DNA of 20,246 nt from IMG/VR virus record IMGVR_UViG_3300046655_000056, positions 1-20,246 of that record; one strand, written 5' to 3'. This DNA is from a virus. The number at the start of each line of letters is the position of its first letter. Within the stretch, counting starts at the first letter, position 1. The notes under the pieces were generated by a model, which saw only the letters and a program-made list of their open reading frames with translations, was not told where the DNA came from and ran no database searches. Position numbers and translations under genes: made by a program. Below are positions 2,083-16,397 of the stretch, piece by piece.

Positions 2083-2225
2083 GCTTATACGAAAACATTA
2101 ACAAGCGTAAGAAGGCTGGTACTAGCCGTCCTAAGGGTAAGTCAACAATTTCTGACAAGTCGTATGCTAACATGAAGGCTGGGTTTCCTAAGAAAAACAC
2201 AAGTAAATACAAGAAGAAAGCATGA
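2079..2225 (+). CDS. Small basic conserved protein, 48 aa
   Basis: ATG 2079 overlaps the preceding TGA, and its own TGA overlaps the lysozyme start (ATGA at 2222). The peptide is strongly basic (MSLYENINKRKKAG, then repeated lysine clusters, ending KYKKKA). I recognise near-identical openings in small proteins next to lysis or terminase genes in T7-like marine phages; their function is unknown. High charge suggests nucleic-acid or membrane-surface binding, which is inference only. Confidence 0.7.
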   Translation: MSLYENINKRKKAGTSRPKGKSTISDKSYANMKAGFPKKNTSKYKKKA

Positions 2226-2635
2226 CAAAGCTAATAGAGCAGTTGAAGCGGCACGAGGGTGTCAAACTTAAACCTTATTTCTGTACGCAGGGCAAATGTA
2301 CTATCGGTGTTGGAAGAAACTTAGACGATGTTGGTATAACAGAGAAAGAAGCAGAGATGCTTCTGGAACACGACATACAAGAGGCAGTGACACAACTGAC
2401 ACGCAGGTTTGCGTGGACGAAAGACCTAGACGAGGTACGTTTCGCAGCCCTTATCAACTTCACCTTCAACGTAGGGATAGGGACAGTAGCAAAGTTCGTA
2501 AACGCAATGGCTCTGCTAAAGGACGGAAAGTACGATATGGCGGCAGAGGAGTTTCTACAGAGTAGGTGGGCTAAACAAGTAGGCCACCGTGCAGTAGAAG
2601 TCACTGAGCAGATACGTACAGGAGAGTGGCAATGA
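2222..2635 (+). CDS. T4-type lysozyme (GH24 muramidase endolysin), 137 aa
   Basis: This enzyme hydrolyses the glycan strands of peptidoglycan at lysis. The active-site region is clear: RHEG with Glu12, Thr27 in TIGVG, and later the family's AALINFTFNVG and SRWAKQVGHRA stretches. Compared with T4 lysozyme (Glu11, Asp20, Thr26), the Asp position is Cys21 here. The E-8-D/C-5-T spacing is a known variant of the family triad. There is no obvious signal-anchor segment, so it should be soluble and need a holin. The start overlaps the preceding stop, and its TGA overlaps the small terminase start (ATGA at 2632). T7 itself uses an amidase placed elsewhere, so this is a different lysis module in the late block. 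Confidence 0.93.
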   Translation: MTKLIEQLKRHEGVKLKPYFCTQGKCTIGVGRNLDDVGITEKEAEMLLEHDIQEAVTQLTRRFAWTKDLDEVRFAALINFTFNVGIGTVAKFVNAMALLKDGKYDMAAEEFLQSRWAKQVGHRAVEVTEQIRTGEWQ

Positions 2636-2847
2636 GTAAAAAAGAACTGATAGACAATTTGCACGATGCTGTAACACAGGACTTGCTACTACGAGTACGT
2701 AGTGGCGAGGCCACAGCGTCTGAGTTGTCAGTAGCTGTCAAGTTTCTAAAAGACAATGGTGCTAGTCTTGACGCTATCATGGCAGAAAGTCCTATGGACA
2801 ACCTGTTAAAGGACTTACCCTTTGAGGTAGCGGAGAGTGTACAATGA
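2632..2847 (+). CDS. terS: Terminase small subunit candidate (T7 gp18-like), 71 aa
   Basis: I place the start at the ATGA junction at 2632, with GGAGAGTGG upstream; an in-frame ATG at 2626 would add two residues. The protein is short, acidic and helical (MSKKELIDNLHDAVTQDLLL, then a SELSVAVKFLKDNGAS stretch), as in T7-like small terminase subunits, which recognise the concatemer and deliver it to the large subunit. It lies just two genes before the large terminase. T7 gp18 is 89 residues. The family match is by size, helix-rich sequence and position. Confidence 0.75.
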   Translation: MSKKELIDNLHDAVTQDLLLRVRSGEATASELSVAVKFLKDNGASLDAIMAESPMDNLLKDLPFEVAESVQ

Positions 2848-3155
2848 GAGGACATAACGCTAGTCTAACATCTAAGAATGTCACGCTACCTGCTGACCAA
2901 TCTTGGGTAAAGCTTTTAGATGATAACGCTAGTCGTATGTATCTAGTAATACAGAATGACCACGATAACCACGCTATTACTATAGGCTTTAGTAATAACA
3001 CTACTGCACCTACTACTGGACTAAACTTAAAAGGTTCTGCACAAGTAGGAGATAAGGATGCTACGTGGGAGTTCTCAGTAGCACCTATTAACGCTGTGTG
3101 GGCAAAGGTAAACGACAACCATGCACATGATATAGAAGTTATATATGATGACTAA
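2844..3155 (+). CDS. Unknown beta-rich protein between terminase subunits, 103 aa
   Basis: ATG 2844 overlaps the TGA of the small terminase gene. The sequence alternates hydrophobic and polar residues, with many Asn, Asp and Thr (VTLPADQSWVKLLDDNASRM, AITIGFSNNTTAPTTG). This suggests a compact beta-sandwich such as a decoration, collar or tail component, and there is no signal or membrane segment. No family is recognised. The stop overlaps the terminase large subunit start by a few bases. Confidence 0.7.
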   Translation: MRGHNASLTSKNVTLPADQSWVKLLDDNASRMYLVIQNDHDNHAITIGFSNNTTAPTTGLNLKGSAQVGDKDATWEFSVAPINAVWAKVNDNHAHDIEVIYDD

Positions 3156-4824
3156 CATTCCAGAGCCACTACACGACTTTAGGAACTTTACATACTTAGT
3201 ATGGCAACACTTAGGTCTGCCAGAGCCTACACCTGTGCAGTACGATATTGCACACTACCTACAGACAAGTCCCAAGCGTAGTATTATTGAGGCGTTTCGG
3301 GGTGTAGGTAAGTCCTACATTACTGCTGCATACGTGGTACATCAGCTATTGCTAGACCCACAGTTAAAGTTTATGGTTGTCTCAGCATCTAAAGCACGTG
3401 CTGATGACTTCTCTACCTTTACGCAGCGTATTATCACAGAACTGCCTATATGTCAACACCTGATTGCTAAAGATGGACAACGGTGGTCTAAGATTGCCTT
3501 TGATGTTGCACCAGCTAAAGCATCTGGTAGCCCCTCTGTAAAGAGTGTGGGTGTTACTGGACAGCTTACAGGTTCTCGTGCTGACATTATCATTGCAGAT
3601 GACGTAGAAGTACCTAATAACTCCATGACACACATGATGCGAGAGAAGCTTGCAGAAACTGTCAAAGAGTTTGACGCTGTTCTCAAGCCTGACGGTAAGA
3701 TTATCTACTTGGGTACACCTCAGAATGAGATGAGCTTGTACAACGTACTACTATCTCGTGGTTATGACATGAGAGTGTGGCCTGCTAGGTATCCTACCCT
3801 AGAACGCTCTGAGAAGGCGTATGGTGGCCGTCTTGCTCCTTTGCTATATGAGGCACTACAGGACGAAGGAACAGCACTGTACGGGCTTCCTACGGACGCT
3901 AAACGCTTTGATGACGAAGACCTACTAGAAAGAGAGCTAAGTTATGGTAGAAGTGGTTTTGCTTTGCAGTTTATGTTGGATACTTCACTTTCTGATGCGA
4001 ACAAGTACCCACTTAAGCTATCCGACTTACTGGTAATGTCGTGTGACAAGGATACAGCACCTGAGAAGATAGTGTATGGCATTATGAAGCCTGTAACAGA
4101 ACTGCCTAACGTAGGTCTGAGTGGTGATAAGTTCTACGCACCAGAGGATACAGTAGGTAGAGCTAAGTATACTGGCTCAGTACTCGCTATTGACCCTTCT
4201 GGTAGAGGTAGCGATGAGACAGCCTACGCAGTTGTAAAGATGTTAAACGGTTTTCTGTATGTTGTAGACTGTGGCGGTGTTGAGGGTGGATACTCTGACT
4301 CCACGTTACAACACTTAACAGACCTAGCAAAGATACACAGCGTAAACATGGTACTCATTGAGAGTAACTTTGGTGACGGTATGTTTACTGAGCTACTCAA
4401 GCCGTACATGCTTAAGACATACCCATGCAGTATGGAAGAGGTAAGACATAATACACAGAAGGAAAGTCGTATCATCGACACGCTAGAGCCTGTTATGAAC
4501 CAGCACAGGTTGGTGATAGACCCTAAGGTAGTACAGAAGGACTACGACAGTGTGCAGCACATGCCACCTGATAAGGGTGTTAAGTACATGCTTACCTATC
4601 AGATGACTAGGATTATGAAGGTACGTGGTGCATTGGCTCACGATGATAGACTTGATGTACTCGCTATGGCTGTGCAGTACTGGGTAGACCAGATGGCAGC
4701 AGACGCTGACAGTGAGATACAGATACGTAGAGATGATTTACTAGATGCAGAACTAGATAAGTTCATGTCAAACCTTAACTTTGGTGTAAGTTCTAGTGAA
4801 CCTTCTGGGTGGATAGAAGTCTAA
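3145..4824 (+). CDS. terL: Terminase large subunit (T7 gp19-like), 559 aa
   Basis: This is the ATP-driven motor and nuclease that cuts the concatemer and packages DNA through the portal. The ATPase domain has Walker A FRGVGKS at residues 51-57, Walker B ADIIIADDVE at 146-155 and the coupling motif IYLGTPQNE at 187-195. The C-terminal RNase H-fold nuclease has Asp350 in VLAIDPSGRG and a later acidic site in HDDRLDVLAMA. The length is close to T7 gp19 (586 aa). The start may be at 3145 or at the second ATG, 3148. The stop codon TAA 4822-4824 lies inside a repeated promoter-like word. It closes the late gene block before a gene-free gap, as gene 19 does in T7. Confidence 0.95.
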   Translation: MMTNIPEPLHDFRNFTYLVWQHLGLPEPTPVQYDIAHYLQTSPKRSIIEAFRGVGKSYITAAYVVHQLLLDPQLKFMVVSASKARADDFSTFTQRIITELPICQHLIAKDGQRWSKIAFDVAPAKASGSPSVKSVGVTGQLTGSRADIIIADDVEVPNNSMTHMMREKLAETVKEFDAVLKPDGKIIYLGTPQNEMSLYNVLLSRGYDMRVWPARYPTLERSEKAYGGRLAPLLYEALQDEGTALYGLPTDAKRFDDEDLLERELSYGRSGFALQFMLDTSLSDANKYPLKLSDLLVMSCDKDTAPEKIVYGIMKPVTELPNVGLSGDKFYAPEDTVGRAKYTGSVLAIDPSGRGSDETAYAVVKMLNGFLYVVDCGGVEGGYSDSTLQHLTDLAKIHSVNMVLIESNFGDGMFTELLKPYMLKTYPCSMEEVRHNTQKESRIIDTLEPVMNQHRLVIDPKVVQKDYDSVQHMPPDKGVKYMLTYQMTRIMKVRGALAHDDRLDVLAMAVQYWVDQMAADADSEIQIRRDDLLDAELDKFMSNLNFGVSSSEPSGWIEV

Positions 4825-4845
4825 AGTTACATCCTAAGGGGAAAG
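4820..4845 (+). promoter_or_regulatory. Putative phage-RNAP promoter, copy 1 (after terL)
   Basis: The word CTAAAGTTACATC at 4821-4833 overlaps the terL stop. It is followed by CTAA and then GGGGAAAG from 4838, so 17 bases precede a G-initial purine start, the same geometry as T7 promoters. Identical 13-base words occur at 11192 and 19763. This copy has the position of T7's terminal promoters beyond gene 19. The assignment is inferred from repetition and position. Confidence 0.65.
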
Positions 4846-4881
4846 ATTAAACTATTACATAGTATAGTATGTAGAACATGT

Positions 4882-4914
4882 TATAGTATGTAGTACATTG
4901 TTGTACATACTATA
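4882..4914 (+). repeat. Inverted repeat / operator-like hairpin
   Basis: TATAGTATGTA at 4882-4892 is the exact reverse complement of TACATACTATA at 4904-4914. A nested GTACA-TTGT-TGTAC pairing is also possible. There is no U-rich tail, so it is not a standard terminator. The right arm recurs at 8707-8717 in the RNA polymerase leader. It is probably a protein-binding site or a cruciform. Confidence 0.6.
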
Positions 4915-5034
4915 CACTACTCGTAGTAATAAGTAAAGAAAATACTACATAGTAGGGTATAGTATGTTAAACAATGCTTATGTGATGGTTAGATTTGTGT
5001 GACATAATTGTGACAGGGTGTATTGGGTGTAAAA

Positions 5035-5064
5035 TTGTTAAAAAAATCTGAGAGGGTATATAAT
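5035..5064 (+). promoter_or_regulatory. Candidate sigma70 early promoter A
   Basis: TTGTTA at 5035-5040 and a perfect TATAAT at 5059-5064 are separated by 18 bases. It faces the early genes from within the gene-free gap, where host RNA polymerase promoters are expected in a T7-like genome. Confidence 0.5.
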
Positions 5065-5105
5065 AATAGTAGAACGCGCGATCCCCCTTAAAGGTACGTG
5101 TTCCA

Positions 5106-5206
5106 TTGTAGCACATTTTCTACATGTTGTCAATGTCAAACATTTGACGCAGCTTTTGTGCTACATTGTGCCACATCTGCAACATGTGTGACATATTTGC
5201 AACATC
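5106..5206. repeat. Cluster of ACAT-containing repeats and inverted repeats
   Basis: After an isolated TGTAGCACAT at 5107-5116, five ACAT words end at 5166, 5176, 5185, 5194 and 5205, at 9-11 base intervals, in units such as TGTGCTACAT and TGTGCCACAT. TGTAGCACA (5107-5115) and TGTGCTACA (5157-5165) are exact inverted copies. ACATGTTG and CAACATGT form another inverted pair, and GTCAAA-CA-TTTGAC lies between. Helically phased repeats suggest a multi-site protein-binding region or an origin or packaging element; the function is unknown. Confidence 0.5.
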
Positions 5207-5454
5207 TGTCTGTCTCTCTCTATCTATTTTTTCCTTTTACTATATAATGCCCAAACTTTTTATAAATTATTTTCATTTTTATTCATTTTTTTTCTTGATT
5301 ATCTTTTTTACTTATGCTTTAATAATATTATCGAAAGGGATACAGTGTTAGCGCATATTCGATACAGTCAAAAGAAAGCGCATAAGAGATACGTTCAACC
5401 TTGCTAGACAATAAGACAGAATAAAGAATACCGAATACAAAGTTAAAAAAGTTA

Positions 5455-5483
5455 TTGACAAGATAAGACAGTAAGAGTAAAGT
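5455..5483 (+). promoter_or_regulatory. Candidate sigma70 early promoter B
   Basis: A perfect TTGACA at 5455-5460 is followed, after 17 bases, by TAAAGT at 5478-5483 (four of six consensus positions). It is correctly oriented and placed to transcribe the early block that starts at 5767, with the structured stretch at 5613-5760 forming the leader. Confidence 0.5.
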
Positions 5484-5663
5484 AAGAGAATAAGAGATAC
5501 GAAACTTCTAAAGTTTGCTAGCCGATGGGCTAATAATAAACAGAACCTATCTAGTAGTAAGTCCTACAATGTGATAGATACGAACCGCAAGGGGCGTCAA
5601 ATATACCTGCCTATCCTCAGGGGAGAGATTACACTACGGGATAAGCGGCTATGCACTGGGTGT

Positions 5664-5719
5664 AGCTAGGTGGATTAGGCGAAGCTAGGTGGAGTCCGAT
5701 AGCAAGGACAGAAGCCTAG
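5664..5719 (+). other. Structured 5' leader with duplicated arm
   Basis: AGCTAGGTGGA occurs twice (5664-5674 and 5683-5693). The second copy can pair CTAGG with CCTAG at 5715-5719 and enclose an inner GTCC-GGAC stem (5694-5709). The first copy could compete for the same 3' arm. There is no tRNA signature. It may be an mRNA leader structure or a small RNA. Confidence 0.35.
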
Positions 5720-5766
5720 TTGTTACAAGGTGCAATGGTGTACCTATAACGCTAGGAGTAGTAGCA

Positions 5767-5970
5767 ATGCAAACAACAACTATTAAACTATTTGGCAAGA
5801 CAGTAGCAACGTATGGCAAGCGCAAGCGTTTTGTAGAAAACCGTTTCGGTATGAAGCGAGGTTCTACATTCATGGGCTTACATATGGGCAAGACTAGCCA
5901 TTATCTGTCAATGCCAGTACTAGCCAAACGCAAGTTTGGAGGAGTGCAAGACATTGTAAATATCACTTGA
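5767..5970 (+). CDS. Early small basic protein, 67 aa
   Basis: I choose ATG 5767, which has the ribosome binding site AGGAGTAG at 5754-5761. The upstream in-frame extension to 5689 runs through the structured leader and is unlikely to be translated. The product is basic (TYGKRKRFVENRFGMKRGST, and AKRKFGG near the end), soluble, and of no recognised family. As the first gene after the control region it takes the place of T7's 0.3-type host-takeover genes. A role in inhibiting a host defence or host polymerase is possible but not shown. Confidence 0.65.
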   Translation: MQTTTIKLFGKTVATYGKRKRFVENRFGMKRGSTFMGLHMGKTSHYLSMPVLAKRKFGGVQDIVNIT

Positions 5971-5981
5971 CACTAGTAGGG

Positions 5982-6002
5982 CAACGATATATTGTATCGT
6001 TG
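5982..6002 (+). repeat. Hairpin between early genes
   Basis: CAACGATA (5982-5989) pairs with TATCGTTG (5995-6002) around a 5-base loop. No T-run follows, so it is not a typical intrinsic terminator. It lies 12 bases after one gene and about 15 bases before the next ribosome binding site, and may be an RNA stability or processing element. Confidence 0.45.
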
Positions 6003-6030
6003 TACCTTGTAACAACTAGGAGTAGACACT

Positions 6031-8742: not shown

Positions 8743-8760
8743 TTATGGATGTAACTTTAG
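8743..8760 (-). promoter_or_regulatory. Putative antisense phage-RNAP promoter, copy 4
   Basis: Read on the minus strand, 8760-8748 is exactly CTAAAGTTACATC, followed by CATA and then AGGAGA from 8743. It matches copy 1 over 15 bases (TCTAAAGTTACATCC). Transcription would run left, antisense to the RNA polymerase ribosome binding site, its promoter and the early operon. The sense strand also encodes residues 2-6 of the polymerase, so function is inferred from sequence identity. Confidence 0.5.
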
Positions 8761-9542
8761 AAACAGACCAAGACCTTATTGACCACCAGCTACAGTTAGA
8801 AACTGAGATGATGACAGGTGGTATAGAAAGATTTAGAAAGGAACGTGACGCATCAATAGAACGTGGTAAAGAGAGCCACACTCTGCATGGCAGGGCTATC
8901 ATAGCTAGGCTAGTGGATGACATGACCGTAGCTATACGAGAGTGGCTGGACAATCCAAGTAATACATCACGAGACATAGCATGGAAGAGGGTGAAGGATG
9001 TACACCCAGAACAGTTAGCATACCTCAGTCTAGTCACACTGGTGGATAGCATCAGTAGAAAGAACACACTGATGTATGTAGCTAGAAGCATAGGGTCAGC
9101 CGTTGAGATACAAGACAGGCTGGACAGGTGGATAGCAGACGAGGGTGACATAGCACGTAACACAATCAAGCAAGCTATGAAGAAAGCCTATGGTGCTAGA
9201 CGCTACGGCCTGACTAACAAGATGAACAAGGATGGGTACAAGGAGAACACATGGCAACAGTCAGAGCGTGTACATGTGGGCTTCAAGATGGTAGACCTTA
9301 TCATCCAGAGTACAGGTATAGTAAAGCTGAACACACAGCAGGTTAAACGTACAAGCAAGACTACCTATGTTATACCTGAGACAGACACAGTAGAATGGAT
9401 TGATGCGTTCAATAGTTTTACTGAGACACACAGACCTAGACTACTACCATGTGTTATCATCCCTAAGGATTGGACAGATGTGACAGGTGGTGGGTATCAT
9501 GGTCACGAGATTAACAAGCTACCTATAGTGAGGCGTAGATGA
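8745..9542 (+). CDS. RNA polymerase N-terminal part (split T7-type RNAP), 265 aa
   Basis: This protein aligns by eye with roughly residues 30-305 of T7 RNA polymerase. Shared stretches include IARLVDDMTVAIREWLDN, HPEQLAYLSLVTLVDSIS, HVGFKMVDLIIQSTGIVKL and PCVIIPKDWTDVTGGGYHG near the C-terminus (T7 has PKPWTGITGGGYW). It covers the promoter-binding N-terminal domain and lacks the first 30 or so T7 residues. The start has GGGGG at 8733-8737. It ends in basic VRRR at the ATGA junction with the second part. Both halves are needed for a working enzyme, much as gp15 and gp16 form N4 RNAPII. Confidence 0.92.
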   Translation: MDVTLETDQDLIDHQLQLETEMMTGGIERFRKERDASIERGKESHTLHGRAIIARLVDDMTVAIREWLDNPSNTSRDIAWKRVKDVHPEQLAYLSLVTLVDSISRKNTLMYVARSIGSAVEIQDRLDRWIADEGDIARNTIKQAMKKAYGARRYGLTNKMNKDGYKENTWQQSERVHVGFKMVDLIIQSTGIVKLNTQQVKRTSKTTYVIPETDTVEWIDAFNSFTETHRPRLLPCVIIPKDWTDVTGGGYHGHEINKLPIVRRR

Positions 9543-11188
9543 GTTTAAAGACACACTTAAATAGATTGCGTAGGCAAGACCTAACACAAGAGTATGCCTG
9601 TCTTAACACACTACAGCGTACTGAGTGGCGTATAAACAAGCAGGTACTTGAGGTCACACGTAACTTGTGGGACAATGGACATCAGGTGGGCAACCTACCA
9701 GCCAAAGAGGACTTACCTCTACCACCCTATCCATTTGATAAAGAACCTGAAGAGATGACTGAGCAAGAGAGGGATGTGTTTCGCACGTGGTCACGCAAGC
9801 GTAATCAAATCTACTCCTTAAACAATCGCAGCATGAGCAAGCGTGTGCAAGTGGAGCGTACACTAAAGATAGCAGAACAGTACAGCAGGTACGATAGGTT
9901 CTACTATGTATGGCAGAACGACTTTCGTTCACGCAAGTACGCATCAAGCACGTTTCTCTCTACTCAGTCAGCAGATTGGAGCAAGGCTTTACTAGAGTTT
10001 GGCTACCCTGTCACCATCAACAGTTGGGATGATGCACGTTGGCTGTGCATACATGGTGCTAACCTGTATGGTAACGACAAGGTAACACTGGATGAGCGTG
10101 AGCGTTGGGCTTGGGACTTTGCTGAGATGTGGTGTCATCGTGTGGTATCTAATCCATACGAGTGCATGGTGTGGCTTGAGGCAGACAAACCCTTTCAGTT
10201 TCTAGCGTGGTGTTATGAGATGTCAGGCTTGATGAAGGATGGCTGGGGATTTGAGACACGTCTACCCTGTGCGGCAGATGGGTCATGCAATGGACTACAG
10301 CATCTCTCTGCCATACTAAGGGATGAGCAGGGTGGTAAGGCTACCAACCTAACAGCATCTGAACTACCTCAGGATATCTACACACAGGTAGCACAGGAAG
10401 CTATGCGTAAGGTACGAGAGGATGACACAGAACTAGCACGTAAGTGTTTAGAGTTTGGGATAGACAGGAAGATAGCCAAGCGTCCTGTTATGATAGTACC
10501 CTACTCAGGTACACGTCACGCATGTAGGCAGTACATTGAGGAAGCAATGCAAGACAAGATAAGTAAGGGAGAAGCTAATCCATTCGGTGATGATTTGTTT
10601 GAAGCATCTTCCTACTTGTCAAAGTATGTATGGGATGCTATAGCTGATGTGATTGTATCAGCAAGAGAGGTGATGACATACATCAAGGATGTAGCAGATG
10701 TGTACTCAGACCACAACAAGCACATGGAATGGGTCACACCTACAGGCTGGCTAGTGCTACAGAACTACAACGAAACAGACAGCAAGAGGATTAAGACACA
10801 CATCAATGGTAACACTGTATCACTATCCTTTCCTAAGGACAGAGAGAACGCAGTGCATCGTAAGCGTACAGGCTTGGGTAGTAGCCCTAACTTCATACAC
10901 TCTATGGATGCAGCAGCTATGACCAAGACTATTAACAGAGCATCCAAGCTTGGTATCGAGGACTACGCAATGGTACACGACAGCTATGGTACACACTCAA
11001 CCAACATGCCTATGCTATCTGAGGTACTGCGTGAGGAGTTTGTTAATATGTACGAACAGCATGATATCTTGACAGAGTTGAGAGACCATGCTATAACAGT
11101 GCTTGGTACACAGGATGTTCCTGTTCCACCAAGTAAAGGTAACTTAGATTTACGTGAGGTTCTAAAGTCACAGTACTTCTTTGCATAA
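9539..11188 (+). CDS. RNA polymerase C-terminal, catalytic part (split T7-type RNAP), 549 aa
   Basis: This is the catalytic part of a single-subunit phage RNA polymerase. Key residues are present: Asp247 in AADGSCNGLQH (T7 Asp537), Lys314 and Tyr322 in KRPVMIVPY (T7 Lys631 and Tyr639), His480-Asp481 in MVHDSYG (T7 His811-Asp812), and the C-terminal FFA foot (T7 FAFA). The region between WVTPTGW and NFIHSMD, which holds the promoter-specificity loop, is shorter than in T7, so promoter choice should differ. Its first 130 residues (TEWRINKQVLEV, NDFRSRKYA) continue directly from where the 265-aa protein stops. ATG 9539 overlaps the upstream TGA, which suggests coupled synthesis in equal amounts. 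Confidence 0.95.
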   Translation: MSLKTHLNRLRRQDLTQEYACLNTLQRTEWRINKQVLEVTRNLWDNGHQVGNLPAKEDLPLPPYPFDKEPEEMTEQERDVFRTWSRKRNQIYSLNNRSMSKRVQVERTLKIAEQYSRYDRFYYVWQNDFRSRKYASSTFLSTQSADWSKALLEFGYPVTINSWDDARWLCIHGANLYGNDKVTLDERERWAWDFAEMWCHRVVSNPYECMVWLEADKPFQFLAWCYEMSGLMKDGWGFETRLPCAADGSCNGLQHLSAILRDEQGGKATNLTASELPQDIYTQVAQEAMRKVREDDTELARKCLEFGIDRKIAKRPVMIVPYSGTRHACRQYIEEAMQDKISKGEANPFGDDLFEASSYLSKYVWDAIADVIVSAREVMTYIKDVADVYSDHNKHMEWVTPTGWLVLQNYNETDSKRIKTHINGNTVSLSFPKDRENAVHRKRTGLGSSPNFIHSMDAAAMTKTINRASKLGIEDYAMVHDSYGTHSTNMPMLSEVLREEFVNMYEQHDILTELRDHAITVLGTQDVPVPPSKGNLDLREVLKSQYFFA

Positions 11189-11236: not shown

Positions 11237-11845
11237 TTGGAAATTATTAAAGGCAACGCTCGATGGGCAAAAGTATTTGAACCAGATACTCGTTATGTTC
11301 CAGAGGGTGAGTACTCTATTCAGGTAACAATACCTGAGGCAGAGGCAACAGAAGTGTGTGAGCAGTTCAACAGCATGATAGAAGCTAAACGTGCTGAAGC
11401 TGTCAAGGATAATCCTAAGTTAACAAACGTCCTGTCCACACATCAACCCTTTGAGATGGATACTGATGAAGCTGGTACACCTACTGGTGACATTGTATTC
11501 AAAGCTAAGATGAAAGCACGTGTCAAGTCAAAGGATGGTAAGGTGTACGAGCAGAAGCCAATGGTTGTGGATGCTAAGAAGACACCACTTGATGGGTCTA
11601 CCCTGATTGGCAATGGTTCTGTTGTTAAGATTGCAGTCGAACCTTTCGCTTACATGATGCCAGCCACTAAGACAGTAGGTGTCACACTACGATTGAAAGC
11701 TGTACAAGTCATTGACATTGTAGAGTATGGTAACAATGCTGCCTCTATCTTTGAGGAAGAGGATGGGTTTGTTACTACTGCTGTGCAGAAGGATGACGCA
11801 CTTGATGTCTTTGGTGGTGATGCTGATGCCGAAGGGGACTTTTGA
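11237..11845 (+). CDS. Single-stranded DNA-binding protein (T7 gp2.5-like), 202 aa, TTG start
   Basis: The start is TTG at 11237, with AGGAGA at 11224-11229; there is no ATG nearby. The protein is a single OB-type domain (residues about 1-160, opening MEIIKGNARWAKVFEP) followed by an acidic tail ending GGDADAEGDF. The terminal Phe after an acidic tail is the feature by which T7 gp2.5 contacts the polymerase and helicase. It protects single-stranded DNA and organises the replisome. The position right after RNA polymerase and before endonuclease I is the T7 order (1, 2.5, 3). The rare TTG start may tune its amount. Confidence 0.88.
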   Translation: MEIIKGNARWAKVFEPDTRYVPEGEYSIQVTIPEAEATEVCEQFNSMIEAKRAEAVKDNPKLTNVLSTHQPFEMDTDEAGTPTGDIVFKAKMKARVKSKDGKVYEQKPMVVDAKKTPLDGSTLIGNGSVVKIAVEPFAYMMPATKTVGVTLRLKAVQVIDIVEYGNNAASIFEEEDGFVTTAVQKDDALDVFGGDADAEGDF

Positions 11846-12185
11846 GGAGAGGGTCATTGATGACCTGAATGTACGTGATGTTCCATATATGTATGAGCCA
11901 GAGAAGCTGGCCTACTATGTGGAGCGTCACTACGTACCTGACTTGAAGGTTGGTACTATGTATGTAGAGTTGAAGGGATACTTCAGACAGGATGCACAAC
12001 GAAAGATGAAGGCCGTTAAGGCACAGCATCCAGAGTTGGACATCAGGTTTGTATTCCAGAAAGCAGACGCTACAATACAGGGTGCTAAGAAAAGGAAGGA
12101 TGGCTCAAAGATGACCTGTGCTGAGTGGGCAGACCGTAATGGTTTTGTTTGGAATGAGGGCAGTATACCAGAGGAATGGTTATGA
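11826..12185 (+). CDS. Endonuclease I (T7 gp3-like Holliday junction resolvase), 119 aa
   Basis: I choose ATG 11826 (overlapping the SSB end by 20 bases); the longer frame from 11727 only adds an out-of-frame reading of the SSB gene. The resolvase core is clear: FEERV near residue 6, YVPDL with Asp39, and VELKG with Glu48 and Lys50, matching T7 gp3 Glu20, Asp55, Glu65 and Lys67. QHPELDIRFVF is nearly identical to T7. It cuts branched DNA, clears replication knots and helps digest host DNA. It is shorter than T7's 149 residues, missing the basic C-terminal tail. Confidence 0.92.
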   Translation: MPKGTFEERVIDDLNVRDVPYMYEPEKLAYYVERHYVPDLKVGTMYVELKGYFRQDAQRKMKAVKAQHPELDIRFVFQKADATIQGAKKRKDGSKMTCAEWADRNGFVWNEGSIPEEWL

Positions 12186-12430
12186 GTATTGTAGATGTTA
12201 CAGAAGAGATTGTATCTGAGATTGACTTGAACGCTGAGTTCAACAAGGATGGCTTACGCTTCTCTGTCTATGTAGATGAGGCAGAGGTACATGAGCATGT
12301 TGATTATGTGGACATGGCATACCTTATGGTACAGGATGAGGACAAGTATCCACCTGAGGTACTAGTGCCTATTCGTAAGGGTCTGTCTCGTATGGTAGAC
12401 ATACTTGAAGAGGCAGAGATTGATGGTTGA
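12182..12430 (+). CDS. Acidic hypothetical protein, 82 aa
   Basis: The start is taken at the ATGA junction with the endonuclease gene; an ATG two codons earlier (12176) is also possible. The product is very acidic (MSIVDVTEEIVSEIDLNAEF, later EDKYPPEVLVPI and EEAEIDG), soluble and alpha-beta in character. No family is recognised. It lies where T7 has the 3.5 lysozyme-regulator between genes 3 and 4, but it shows no amidase motifs, so that T7 function is not kept here. Its stop lies inside the next gene's start region. Confidence 0.7.
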   Translation: MSIVDVTEEIVSEIDLNAEFNKDGLRFSVYVDEAEVHEHVDYVDMAYLMVQDEDKYPPEVLVPIRKGLSRMVDILEEAEIDG

Positions 12431-14030
12431 GGATGGTGAGTTTATCAGGCACGTTGCCTGTCCTCACTGTGGCAGTAGTGATGCCAACGCTTTGTATAGC
12501 AATGGTAAACACTACTGCTTCTCTTGCCAAACTCTAACACCAGCTAACAATGAGGAAGCTATGGCAAAGTTTGAGACACACGACACAGGCTTCTTGGACA
12601 TAGAGTACAGGGATTTACTTAAGCGTGGTATCTCTCAAAAGACTTGTCAGTTCTGGGGCTATGGTGTTACTGATTACAAGGGACAGAAGGTACAGGTTGC
12701 TAACTATCGTAGCAGGGCTGGAGATTTGTCAGCACAAAAGATTAGGTTTGCCAACAAGGACTTCTCTGTTGTTGGTAACATTAAAGATGTTGGCCTGTAT
12801 GGTGAGCATCTATGGAGAGATGGTAAGGGTGGCAAGTTCATTACTATATGTGAGGGTGAGCTAGATGCTATGTCCCTATCACAGGTGATGGATAACAAGT
12901 GGCCTGTAGTATCTCTACCCTCAGGCTGTACCTCTGCTAAGAAAGCATTGGGTAAGTCTATTGAGTGGTTGTCCAAGTATGAGTATGTAGTACTTATGTT
13001 TGACATGGACGAGGTGGGTCAGAAAGCAGCAAAGGATTGTGCTTCAGTACTACCACCTAACAAATGTAAGATAGCTACCCTTCCCTTGAAGGATGCTAAC
13101 GAAATGCTACAAGCAGGTAGGGTCAAGGAACTAGTCGATGCTGTATGGGAAGCTAAGACATTCAGACCTGATGGTATCGTAGCAGGTACAGATGTATGGG
13201 ACATTGTTACTGAGGATGACAGTAAAGATTCAGTACCCTATCCATACATAGGTATGCAAGAGAAGACAGGTGGCTGTCGTAGGGGTGAGATAACAACAGT
13301 AACTGCTGGCTCTGGTATTGGTAAGTCACAGCTAGCACGTGAGTTTGCTCACAATCTCATCAGGAATGGTAGGACACTAGGATACATTGCTCTTGAAGAA
13401 AGCATAAAGCGTACTGCCTTAGGTCTGATGTCGATTGAGATGAACAAGCCCCTTCACCTACACAACAACACTGTACCAGAAGAGGAGTTGAAACATGCTT
13501 TCGATGCTACACTTGGAACTGGTAGAGTATACCTATATGACCATTGGGGTTCTACTGATAGTGATAATCTACTTGACAAGATAAGATACTTAGTTCATGG
13601 TTGTGGGTGTGAGTACATTATCCTTGACCACATCAGTATCGTAGTCAGTGGACTAGAGGGTGGAGATGAGAGGAGACTTATTGATAATACAATGACACGT
13701 TTACGTGCGTTGGTTGAGGAGTTAAACTGTGGCCTGATACTAGTGTCACACTTGAAGCGTCCCTCTGGTGACAGAGGACATGAGGATGGCGCACAAACTT
13801 CACTCTCCCAGCTACGTGGTTCAGCAGCAATCGGTCAGCTTAGTGATATGGTGATTGGATTGGAGCGAGACCAACAAGACAAAGACAATCCTCACGTCAG
13901 CCATGTAAGAGTTCTTAAGAACAGATGGTCAGGCGATACAGGACTATGTTGTTCACTGTTGTACGATACTGATACAGGACGTATGACTGAGACAATCTTT
14001 GATGAAGATGAGGACGATATAGAATTTTAA
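12423..14030 (+). CDS. Primase-helicase (T7 gp4-like), 535 aa
   Basis: This ring-shaped helicase unwinds DNA and makes primers. In order: a zinc-binding domain with Cys13, Cys16, Cys32 and Cys35 (CPHC, CFSC); a TOPRIM primase core with Glu144 (CEGELD) and Asp194/Asp196 (FDMDE); and a RecA-type helicase with Walker A AGSGIGKS at about 295-302, then LDHISIVVSG and the arginine-finger region. The acidic tail ends FDEDEDDIEF, with a terminal Phe as in T7 gp4. I place the start at 12423; an in-frame ATG at 12405 would add six residues. The zinc domain means the full-length primase form is encoded, and no internal start for a helicase-only form is obvious. Confidence 0.95.
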   Translation: MVEDGEFIRHVACPHCGSSDANALYSNGKHYCFSCQTLTPANNEEAMAKFETHDTGFLDIEYRDLLKRGISQKTCQFWGYGVTDYKGQKVQVANYRSRAGDLSAQKIRFANKDFSVVGNIKDVGLYGEHLWRDGKGGKFITICEGELDAMSLSQVMDNKWPVVSLPSGCTSAKKALGKSIEWLSKYEYVVLMFDMDEVGQKAAKDCASVLPPNKCKIATLPLKDANEMLQAGRVKELVDAVWEAKTFRPDGIVAGTDVWDIVTEDDSKDSVPYPYIGMQEKTGGCRRGEITTVTAGSGIGKSQLAREFAHNLIRNGRTLGYIALEESIKRTALGLMSIEMNKPLHLHNNTVPEEELKHAFDATLGTGRVYLYDHWGSTDSDNLLDKIRYLVHGCGCEYIILDHISIVVSGLEGGDERRLIDNTMTRLRALVEELNCGLILVSHLKRPSGDRGHEDGAQTSLSQLRGSAAIGQLSDMVIGLERDQQDKDNPHVSHVRVLKNRWSGDTGLCCSLLYDTDTGRMTETIFDEDEDDIEF

Positions 14031-14052: not shown

Positions 14053-15759
14053 ATGAGACTTATATTTGATATAGAAGCAGACAATCTCTTGGATGATGTA
14101 ACACAGGTGTGGTGCATAGTAACAAGAGATGTAGACACAGAGGAAGTACACACCTTTGACCCCAACAATATAGAAGAGGGCATCAAGTTACTTGACAAAG
14201 CTGACATGCTGATAGGCCATAACATAATTGAGTATGACCTACGTGTGTTAGAAAAGCTACATGGTTACAAGTACACTGGACAAACTCTTGATACGTTGGT
14301 ATACTCTAGAACTATATGGCCTGACATTCGTGAGGTTGATATCAAACTGCACAAGCAAGACAGGATGCCACTAGCATTGATTGGTAGACAAAGCCTGAAA
14401 GCTTGGGGCTACAGACTAGGAGAATTAAAAGGTGTTTTCGGTAGTGATAGTGAGGACTTTGGAACTTTCTCACAAGAGATGCTTGACTACTGTGTCCAAG
14501 ACACGATGGTCAATTACAAACTATATCTTAAAATTGTGGAAAAAAATTTCAGCAAACAGGCACTAGACCTAGAGACTGAGATACATACTTTGCTGGTAGA
14601 GCAACAGGAACGAGGCTTTACCTTTGATGTTAAACAAGCACAGGCTCTGTACTCTAGTATAGCAGGGCGTAAGCAAGAGATTGAGAACCAGTTACAGCAG
14701 GTGTTTGAACCTACTGTAGTTGAGATGAAGACTAAGACTAAGACCATTCCATTCAACCCTGCATCACGACAGCAGATAGCAGACAGACTGATGAAGAGAG
14801 GATGGAAGCCAGCTACCTTCACTAACAATGGAGACCCGAAGGTAGATGAAGAAGTACTGTCTAACATTGATATGCCAGAAGCAAAGCTGTTGACTGAGTA
14901 CCTACTACTTAATAAAAGAGTAGGCCAGATAGCAACAGGCAAGCAAGCTTGGTTGAAGATGGAGAAGGGGGGTAAGTTACATGGTAGAGTTAATCACATG
15001 GGTGCTGTCACGTCACGCTGTACGCATAGCAACCCGAACATGGCGCAAGTTCCTAGCGTTGGTTCGCCATTTGGTGAGGAGTGTAGGAGTTTATTTCATG
15101 CACCCTCAGGTTATTCCCTCTTGGGTGCTGACGCTAGTGGGTTGGAGTTGCGTTGCCTTGCTCATTACATGGCTGCTTACGATGATGGGTCTTACGCACA
15201 TGAAGTAGTTAACGGTGATGTGCATACTATTAACCAAGAAGCAGCAGGTCTACCCTCACGTCCAAACGCCAAGACATTCATCTATGGATTTCTTTATGGT
15301 GCAGGTGATGAGAAGATTGGTAAGATTATTAACAAGGGTAGCAAGGAAGGTAAGTCTATTAAGAATAAGTTTCTAAAGAAACTACCAGCCCTGAAGTATC
15401 TAAAGGATGCTGTATCTAAAGCAGCAGATGATAGAGGATGGGTCAAGGGATTGGATGGCAGAGCTATACCAGTTCGTCATAGTCACGCTTCACTGAATAC
15501 TTTACTTCAGTCATGTGGTGCTATAATCTGTAAGACATGGTACGTGTTTATTGCACGTGCTATCAAGGAAGCAAACTTGGACGCACAGATTGTAGCGTTC
15601 ATCCACGATGAGGTACAGCTAGTAGTAAAGAAAGGTCAGGAAGATGAAACAGGCAGACTTATTCAACGATGTATGCGAGACACAGAGCAACACTTCAAGT
15701 TCAGATGTCAGCTTGATAGTGAGTACAAGTATGGAAACAACTGGGCAGACACACACTAA
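14053..15759 (+). CDS. DNA polymerase (T7 gp5-like, family A), 568 aa
   Basis: This is the replicative polymerase. The 3'-5' exonuclease is intact (Asp6 and Glu8 in FDIEAD, Asp62, Asp150 in YCVQD). The polymerase motifs are A with Asp360 (GADASGLELRCLAHY), B with Lys407, Tyr411 and Tyr415 (NAKTFIYGFLYGAGDEKIG), and C with His518-Asp519-Glu520. It is 136 residues shorter than T7 gp5. Most of the loss is the thioredoxin-binding insert: only about 16 residues separate QQVF (about 218) from FNPASR (about 234), where T7 has about 90. GGAG lies upstream at 14042. The next gene starts inside its last codons. Confidence 0.95.
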   Translation: MRLIFDIEADNLLDDVTQVWCIVTRDVDTEEVHTFDPNNIEEGIKLLDKADMLIGHNIIEYDLRVLEKLHGYKYTGQTLDTLVYSRTIWPDIREVDIKLHKQDRMPLALIGRQSLKAWGYRLGELKGVFGSDSEDFGTFSQEMLDYCVQDTMVNYKLYLKIVEKNFSKQALDLETEIHTLLVEQQERGFTFDVKQAQALYSSIAGRKQEIENQLQQVFEPTVVEMKTKTKTIPFNPASRQQIADRLMKRGWKPATFTNNGDPKVDEEVLSNIDMPEAKLLTEYLLLNKRVGQIATGKQAWLKMEKGGKLHGRVNHMGAVTSRCTHSNPNMAQVPSVGSPFGEECRSLFHAPSGYSLLGADASGLELRCLAHYMAAYDDGSYAHEVVNGDVHTINQEAAGLPSRPNAKTFIYGFLYGAGDEKIGKIINKGSKEGKSIKNKFLKKLPALKYLKDAVSKAADDRGWVKGLDGRAIPVRHSHASLNTLLQSCGAIICKTWYVFIARAIKEANLDAQIVAFIHDEVQLVVKKGQEDETGRLIQRCMRDTEQHFKFRCQLDSEYKYGNNWADTH

Positions 15760-16201
15760 GACATGTAACACCTGTAATGTAGAACTTACTGACCTTAACT
15801 GGTACAAAGGTTTTCAGAAGAACAGAACTTATAAGTGCAAGCCTTGTACTAGAGCCTATCAGATACCTATTGAACGAGCAAGGAACATGCTTAAGAAGAT
15901 TAAGGAAGGTACTCTTGCACAGTTCAATAAGATTAAGACAGGTGATATCTATGTAATTACTAATCCAGCATGGCCTGATTGGGTAAAGATTGGTAGAGGT
16001 GTAGACGCAAAGGACAGGTTCAAAGACTACATGACTTACAGCCCCTTTAGGGATTACAAGTTAGAGTACTATGTACACACAGACAACAGGTCTGAGGCTG
16101 AACACAAGGCTCACGTAGAAGCAGAGAAGTTAGGTGAGAGAAGGAACGAGTGGTTTAATATATCACTACAGCAAGCAAAGGATATATTAAATGGACTTTG
16201 A
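15731..16201 (+). CDS. Zinc-ribbon plus GIY-YIG-type (T5orf172/Mug113) nuclease-like protein, 156 aa
   Basis: The start is taken at ATG 15731, overlapping the polymerase end by 29 bases; an earlier ATG (15644) only reads the polymerase gene in another frame. Residues about 12-40 carry a zinc ribbon (CNTC, then CKPC). Residues about 75-150 match the T5orf172 type of GIY-YIG domain: IYVITNPAWPDWVKIGRG, an Arg in the first helix region, a charged middle and NEWFNISLQQAKDIL with the acidic residue. Such proteins are nucleases or DNA-binding relatives of homing endonucleases. Its insertion between polymerase and exonuclease suggests a free-standing homing-type nuclease or a repair factor. Confidence 0.8.
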   Translation: METTGQTHTKTCNTCNVELTDLNWYKGFQKNRTYKCKPCTRAYQIPIERARNMLKKIKEGTLAQFNKIKTGDIYVITNPAWPDWVKIGRGVDAKDRFKDYMTYSPFRDYKLEYYVHTDNRSEAEHKAHVEAEKLGERRNEWFNISLQQAKDILNGL

Positions 16202-16397
16202 TTTCTTATGGAAGATGATACTCACCTGTTGCTTCATGGGTGTTACTATCTGCCTGTGTATCAAGTGGATAGTAGAAGCTTACCTTGACTACGTACAAGT
16301 AATGATGGGTATCAAGGTAGTTACACTGGCTCAGATGAAAGAAGAACAATCGCAACAAGATAGACAGGAGATGGACGATGACCCTTTTGCTCATTGA
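16191..16397 (+). CDS. Small single-TM protein, 68 aa
   Basis: AAAGGA lies upstream, and the start overlaps the preceding gene by 11 bases. A single membrane segment covers about residues 8-26 (WKMILTCCFMGVTICLCIKW), followed by an amphipathic part and an acidic tail (EEQSQQDRQEMDDDPFAH). No family is recognised. It may tether replication or degradation enzymes to the membrane, which is speculation from its place between two nuclease genes. The end overlaps the exonuclease gene by 20 bases. Confidence 0.65.
   Translation: MDFDFLWKMILTCCFMGVTICLCIKWIVEAYLDYVQVMMGIKVVTLAQMKEEQSQQDRQEMDDDPFAH

Follow-up and report, generated by a model that had tools for sequence, protein, structure and literature searches.

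T7 has the textbook minimal replisome, of which thioredoxin, as processivity factor, is taken to be part. The virus record studied here (the window, 20,246 bases) carries a T7-type DNA polymerase gene that lacks the thioredoxin-binding insert, and the question it raises is how such an enzyme is kept on its template during replication. An earlier note on this DNA had treated the phage as exceptional and had argued that it must use other means of gaining processivity, among them acidic tails on its single-stranded DNA-binding protein (SSB) and helicase or a clamp-like factor. Answering the question involves establishing what kind of polymerase this is, what exactly has gone from it, how common that state is, and which partners could hold it.

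The polymerase gene lies in familiar company, with a split T7-type RNA polymerase, a gp2.5-type SSB, endonuclease I and a gp4-type primase-helicase around it, and a 5' exonuclease, MazG and ribonucleotide reductase as further neighbours (Table 1). Profile searches matched phrog_17 (E 4.7e-148) over residues 2-567 and PF00476 at 170.7 bits against a cut-off of 34.3, and a phmmer search against solved structures gave T7 gp5 as the best solved relative (E 1.7e-121), with an alignment running end to end. The catalytic residues D6, E8, D62, D150, D360, R403, K407, Y411 and D519 are all intact and are invariant among 80 unique polymerases with the same insert length, D6 and E8 being counted in 79 of 80 as one row is gapped there. 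In the alignment, D6, E8, D150, D360, D519 and Y411 correspond to D5, E7, D174, D475, D654 and Y526 of T7 gp5, which we take to be its exonuclease and polymerase catalytic residues. Both sets of motifs had been described as intact, and this description stands. The deposited phages nearest in polymerase are marine roseophages and pelagiphages, at no more than 49.6% identity; closer relatives are numerous in IMG/VR, where two contigs (L002 and L003) encode a polymerase that is 100% identical.

Table 1. Replication features of the window, with the positions, strand and basis of each.
Feature	Positions	Strand	Basis
gp2.5-type single-stranded DNA-binding protein	11237..11845	+	phrog_112 E 3.3e-30, PF21265
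SSB C-terminal acidic tail DALDVFGGDADAEGDF, Phe-ended	11795..11842	+	sequence
Conserved acidic 84-aa protein (22 acidic, 6 basic residues), weak accessory-factor candidate	12176..12430	+	conservation
gp4-type primase-helicase, TTG start as listed	12405..14030	+	phrog_239 E 3.9e-188
Helicase C-terminal acidic tail FDEDEDDIEF, Phe-ended	13998..14027	+	sequence
T7-type family A DNA polymerase, 568 aa, ATG start, without thioredoxin-binding domain	14053..15759	+	profiles, alignment, model
Thumb-tip beta-hairpin, residues 219-233 (15 residues), EPTVVEMKTKTKTIP, in place of 72-residue T7 stretch	14707..14751	+	alignment, model
Basic segment of the fingers (residues 423-455, net +8), a candidate surface for docking tails or holding DNA	15319..15417	+	alignment, charge
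Site of missing T7 574-587 (W579 fork hairpin and start of front basic patch), residues 457-463	15421..15441	+	alignment

The insert can be measured as the residues between two fixed anchor points, Phe218, at which the thumb helix ends, and the Phe of an FNP motif (Phe234). By this count the window polymerase has 15 residues and T7 has 72, which confirms that the thioredoxin-binding insert is absent; the size of about 16 residues proposed earlier was right, and that of roughly 90 for T7 was too large. The phmmer blocks against T7 gp5 likewise stop at query residue 218 (T7 261) and restart at 227 (T7 327). The T7 loop is given as residues 258-333 in one paper (PMC3556154) and as 71 residues in another (PMC3997047), and the about 71-76 thumb residues that define the thioredoxin-dependent gp5 subtype are lacking in the window polymerase. 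An AlphaFold2 model, built from a 60-sequence alignment (pLDDT 93.4, pTM 0.90), places a short hairpin (strands 221-224 and 229-232) directly after the helix at 193-217. Superposition on T7 gp5, which had been suggested as a check, aligned 567 of 568 residues with chain 2ajq_F (Z 43.6, 2.1 A) with only this short hairpin at the site; an alternative insert, the result that would have spoken against the earlier reading, was looked for in the model and not found.

Host thioredoxin could in principle bind the polymerase at another place, and it should be available, as thioredoxin is near-universal in bacteria (13 of 14 control genomes). However, no window segment of at least 3 residues that is absent from T7 gp5 was found along the whole polymerase, the superposition extends throughout, and T7 269-325, most of the thioredoxin-bound loop, is missing. 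An alternative insert elsewhere in the protein was ruled out on the first two of these grounds, and binding at another place is considered very improbable. It is more improbable still that an error of assembly or annotation produced the short form, even for a metagenome-derived virus record. The frame is open, the two contigs noted above carry the identical polymerase, 72 unique relatives share the same 15-residue length, and the cultured pelagiphage HTVC019P has 22 residues at the site. These relatives in effect refute an error, and assembly error is excluded because of the identical contigs, the shared length and the synonymous codon variation found under invariant residues.

The hairpin itself is conserved. 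All 72 unique members of the window clade have K226, K228 and K230, T227 likewise never varies, and the lysines are encoded by both AAA and AAG. Of the 271 polymerases compared, 254 have Lys or Arg at position 228, where T7 has Pro. The excess over the protein average is modest, with 10 of 18 positions invariant compared to 31% (P 0.028 for a segment picked post hoc), and the hairpin region taken together, residues 212-233, is near neutral (mean net charge -0.2 in the clade).

The polymerase also lacks a second piece, which the earlier note missed and which comprises the W579 fork hairpin and the front basic patch. T7 574-587 is absent in the alignment, and the T7 columns K587, K589, R590 and R591 read gap, D, R and G in the window. 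We take these four to be the residue numbers of the front basic patch in T7 gp5; the WKRRW sequence itself is seen in the alignment. The window polymerase thus has neither the hairpin nor the patch (K587 to R591) of the thioredoxin-dependent subtype. Of the 268 unique polymerases with inserts shorter than 63 residues, 267 have a gap in the W579 column and 266 have one in the K587 column. Conversely, the fork hairpin and a WKR[RK] motif are present in all seven references that bear the thioredoxin-binding domain (TBD), and therefore the insert and the hairpin with its patch go together. A helicase-tail peptide on T7 gp5 is reportedly the subject of the 6P7E paper. In T7, W579 lies within the 574-587 stretch, on a hairpin that stacks at the fork (PMC8835902), and the helicase tails are described as binding the front patch and the TBD patch, with processivity rising from 5 to 17 kb (PMC12593628, PMC5997990). 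A review counts three positive patches on the T7 polymerase (PMC8472574), and the third, beyond the two compared here, may be conserved in the window polymerase.

How unusual is this state? Insert lengths were compared across 271 unique polymerases, assembled from four seeded scans (at most 80 loci each) and fetched phage records. Twelve of 334 polymerase open frames were left out as not full length, and P-SSP10 (L095) and ProddE (L089) were excluded from the reference alignments, the gene being unannotated or interrupted. The lengths were 15 residues in 80 polymerases, 22 in 68, 30-35 in 82, 39-62 in 38 and 63-72 in 3, class sizes that are not abundances because the sample is seeded and holds at most 80 loci per scan. 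The window clade has 72 unique members with this 15-residue length, and only T7, gh-1 and ICP3 reach at least 63 residues among these seeded polymerases. Among deposited phages, a polymerase match at E 1e-60 was found in 1343 records and a T7-insert-like piece at E 0.01 in 1205, mostly Klebsiella, Escherichia, Pseudomonas and Salmonella phages, the two counts coming from separate searches and not being strict subsets. In a tree of 79 polymerases with the insert columns removed, the seven TBD-bearing rows fall on one side of a branch (SH-aLRT 100), and when rooted on E. coli Pol I the full insert belongs to one Studiervirinae clade nested among shorter forms. This root rests on long branches (EcPolI 3.08, phiKMV 7.41), so a gain of the insert in the T7 line is likely but not proven against one old loss.

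Read most simply, the insert-free state is the general one for T7-type polymerases, and the thioredoxin insert and the fork hairpin with its front patch appear to be additions of T7 and its Studiervirinae kin. Insert-free polymerases make up a large share of the family, and the window enzyme is an ordinary one among them. The idea of an exceptional phage is not supported, as the insert is absent from most T7-type polymerases of the seeded sample and the T7 form is that of one clade; to say that this phage must use other means is probably to put matters backwards, since the insert looks like a T7-lineage addition. The absence of a thioredoxin-binding domain was already reported in 2017 for phiKMV-like phages (PMC5653853). 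For marine phages, a search of open-licence papers gave none on insert-free T7-type polymerases among the matches listed, which is a weak negative.

Accessory factors were searched for in 29 records, of which 13 belong to the window clade (G000 and the records of L019, L025, L040, L041, L007, L010, L028, L065, L068, L100, L101 and L106). Thioredoxin (PF00085) was matched in none of these 13, while the same search found it in 13 of 14 control genomes. Glutaredoxin (PF00462) exceeded the cut-off in one of 13, the record of L100, a relative at 65% identity, and was also matched in the records of L122 and CRP-227. The beta clamp (PF02768) gave no match in 19 records, several of them fragments, with a working control, and none in the 13 clade records; the search for the T4-type clamp (PF02916), with none in 19, is uninformative, its control being silent as well. 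The clamp-like factor that had been proposed is thus not supported, the 13 clade records having given neither a thioredoxin nor a beta-clamp match and a glutaredoxin in only one. As a separate observation, the cyanophages Syn5 (gp25, L088:4460-4756) and S-TIP28 (L094:4458-4760) encode a small thioredoxin-like protein between helicase and polymerase, with an NCGPC or NCKPC motif and a Pfam E of 4e-5, below the curated cut-off. Their polymerase insert is 30 residues long, and the protein could be a phage-borne partner of this short insert.

A phage protein that profile searches do not recognise could also serve as the processivity factor, and the acidic 84-aa protein encoded just upstream of the helicase is an example. 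Its frame sits within the replication cluster, is kept in 43 of the 49 clade loci that cover the site, and belongs to no known family in profile searches. The model (pLDDT 84.4) has three strands and two helices. The protein is strongly acidic, however, nothing found links it to the polymerase, and its model has no solved-structure match at E <0.001, although this last point is no evidence against a role. The other conserved small neighbours include a DUF3310 protein, a probable membrane protein and a T5orf172-type protein, and the resemblance of the latter two to these types also speaks against an accessory factor among them. Overall, we consider such a factor unlikely, though less so than thioredoxin bound elsewhere. 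The membrane protein (16191-16397, 68 aa) has a conserved acidic end and occurs in 53 of 57 covering loci. The T5orf172/MUG113-type protein (15644-16201) starts in a frame inside the 3' end of the polymerase gene, occurs in 55 of 60 covering loci and matches PADLOC PDC-S57 at E 6.7e-13.

The tails of the SSB and helicase offer a more promising connection. The window encodes the two T7-type partners, a gp4-type primase-helicase and a gp2.5-type SSB, and both end in acidic tails closed by Phe, as had been pointed out before. The true helicase start may be a Met codon at 12423. In the 15-residue class, all 47 unique SSBs end in Phe, as do 56 of the 61 unique helicases, and the mean net charge over the last 20 residues is -6.6 for the SSBs and -6.1 for the helicases. 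For all polymerases with inserts below 63 residues the hand-summed figures are 147 of 154 unique SSBs and 133 of 190 unique helicases, and helicase tails outside the 15-residue class are often without the Phe. Among 1315 control open frames of at least 150 codons, which include non-genes, 3.0% end in Phe and one is both Phe-ended and acidic. Acidic tails have other jobs besides polymerase docking, and their conservation is therefore no proof of docking. The tail idea was also incomplete in that the front basic patch, which in T7 adjoins the W579 hairpin, is absent as well. Since both published docking sites (the TBD patch and the front basic patch) are missing from the window polymerase, the tails, if they tether it, must bind some other site.

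One candidate for such a site is the fingers segment at residues 423-455, equivalent to the T7 stretch with the parental-DNA cleft lysines 545/549/553 (PMC8835902). Its mean net charge is +7.8 in the 72 clade members versus 0 to +3 in the seven TBD-bearing polymerases. In the other insert-free classes it is less basic (means +4.4 to +4.9), so it is no general replacement for the lost docking sites. K545, K549 and K553 were expected to be kept, but only K549 is matched (Lys434), and the segment is for this reason better called more basic overall than a retained cleft. The lysine hairpin and the fingers segment are thus the candidate surfaces, and sequence alone does not assign either of them to DNA or to tail binding.

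The reading that we favour, taken as a whole and at somewhat better than even confidence, is that the window encodes a thioredoxin-independent enzyme of the T7 gp5 kind, which serves as the replicative DNA polymerase of an Autographiviridae-type marine phage and is probably tethered by helicase and SSB. The polymerase core would itself hold the new duplex, and the three-lysine hairpin would give it a minimal grip. Intrinsic processivity would be modest, as in other insert-free family A enzymes, and processivity at the fork would be gained through the acidic Phe-ended tails, for which the fingers surface, strongly basic here, or else the lysine hairpin could be the docking place. Alternatively, the polymerase may simply be distributive, with frequent fall-off and reloading being enough for a genome of about 40 kb, and neither clamp nor docking needed. 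E. coli Pol I-like insert-free family A polymerases are described as having low processivity (PMC3556154), T7 gp5 without thioredoxin is reported to add only a few nucleotides per binding (PMC3997047), and neither clamp nor thioredoxin was found in the 13 clade records. However, the Phe-ended acidic tails of nearly all SSBs and helicases in the 15-residue class suggest a kept tether, and the clade has conserved its basic fingers segment. A distributive enzyme is accordingly the strongest of the alternatives, and still a good deal less probable than tethering.

Several features of the surroundings can be recorded alongside the replication genes. The T7-type RNA polymerase is split into 8745-9542 and 9539-11188 (265 and 549 aa, carrying the RPOL_N and RNA_pol domains) with an ATGA overlap. 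It is split in 32 of 32 unique clade members showing both parts and fused in none; counting every locus, with near-copies, gives 45 split in the clade, and outside the clade 68 fused and 4 split, one of the latter (L109) being itself a window relative. The RNA polymerase II of phage N4 is a parallel. At the gene junction, TACGCCTCACTATAGG occurs at 9522-9537 on the minus strand, antisense, as the sole such site in the window, one base off what we take to be the T7 promoter core. The relatives L008, L014 and L040 differ within it, and it is probably a coding coincidence. Late genes, a lysozyme-like ORF and the large terminase, lie within 2222-6030, upstream of the early region and RNA polymerase, and the junction of the genome ends seems to fall inside the contig. 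About 1.2 kb of this stretch (4825-6030) has few long + strand frames.

For the T7 model, the comparison separates what is general in T7-type replication, the tails, from what is specific to T7, thioredoxin. A single lineage combines the use of thioredoxin with the fork hairpin and the front docking patch, whereas the acidic tails are kept far more widely. A more specific proposal, drawn from sequence comparison and put forward only tentatively, is that in insert-free T7-type replisomes, which would be widespread among marine phages, the tails dock on the fingers surface and the thumb lysine hairpin rather than on either published T7 patch, with the TBD and the fork hairpin with front patch as later joint additions of the T7 lineage. 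If true, the tail tether would be older than thioredoxin recruitment. Marine phage polymerases are in any case natural insert-free enzymes, which can be used for studying how a clamp-less replisome holds on to DNA.

Among known polymerases, the closest parallel is T7 gp5, with the same fold, the same order of exonuclease and polymerase, gp4 and gp2.5 partners nearby, a Tyr at T7 Y526 and 45.9% identity over window residues 227-568 (deposited T7 records). Besides T7 269-325 (TBD) and 574-587 (W579 hairpin and start of the front patch), the window enzyme lacks the smaller T7 loops 48-51, 74-79, 144-156, 191-209, 381-384, 460-467 and 639-644. The phiKMV-like polymerases (phiKMV, phiNFS, LKA1 and others) are also reported to be without a thioredoxin-binding domain (PMC5653853), but phiKMV polymerase (807 aa) is only distantly related in sequence, on a very long branch, and by annotation separate primase and AAA ATPase genes adjoin it in place of a gp4-type gene. 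E. coli DNA polymerase I (Klenow part), described as a repair enzyme (PMC3556154), resembles the window enzyme in having neither thioredoxin insert nor fork hairpin; it differs in showing no thumb-tip hairpin in the alignment, and identity by structure is 22%. Nearer in kind are the cultured pelagiphages, roseophages and cyanophages HTVC019P, CRP-227, HTVC011P and Syn5, whose T7-type enzymes fall short of a full insert, with 22, 33, 34 and 30 residues there, respectively, and, like the window enzyme, have no W579 hairpin. What sets the window clade apart from these marine phages is its stretch of 15 residues, the shortest, which carries the KTKTK hairpin, and a fingers segment that is more basic.
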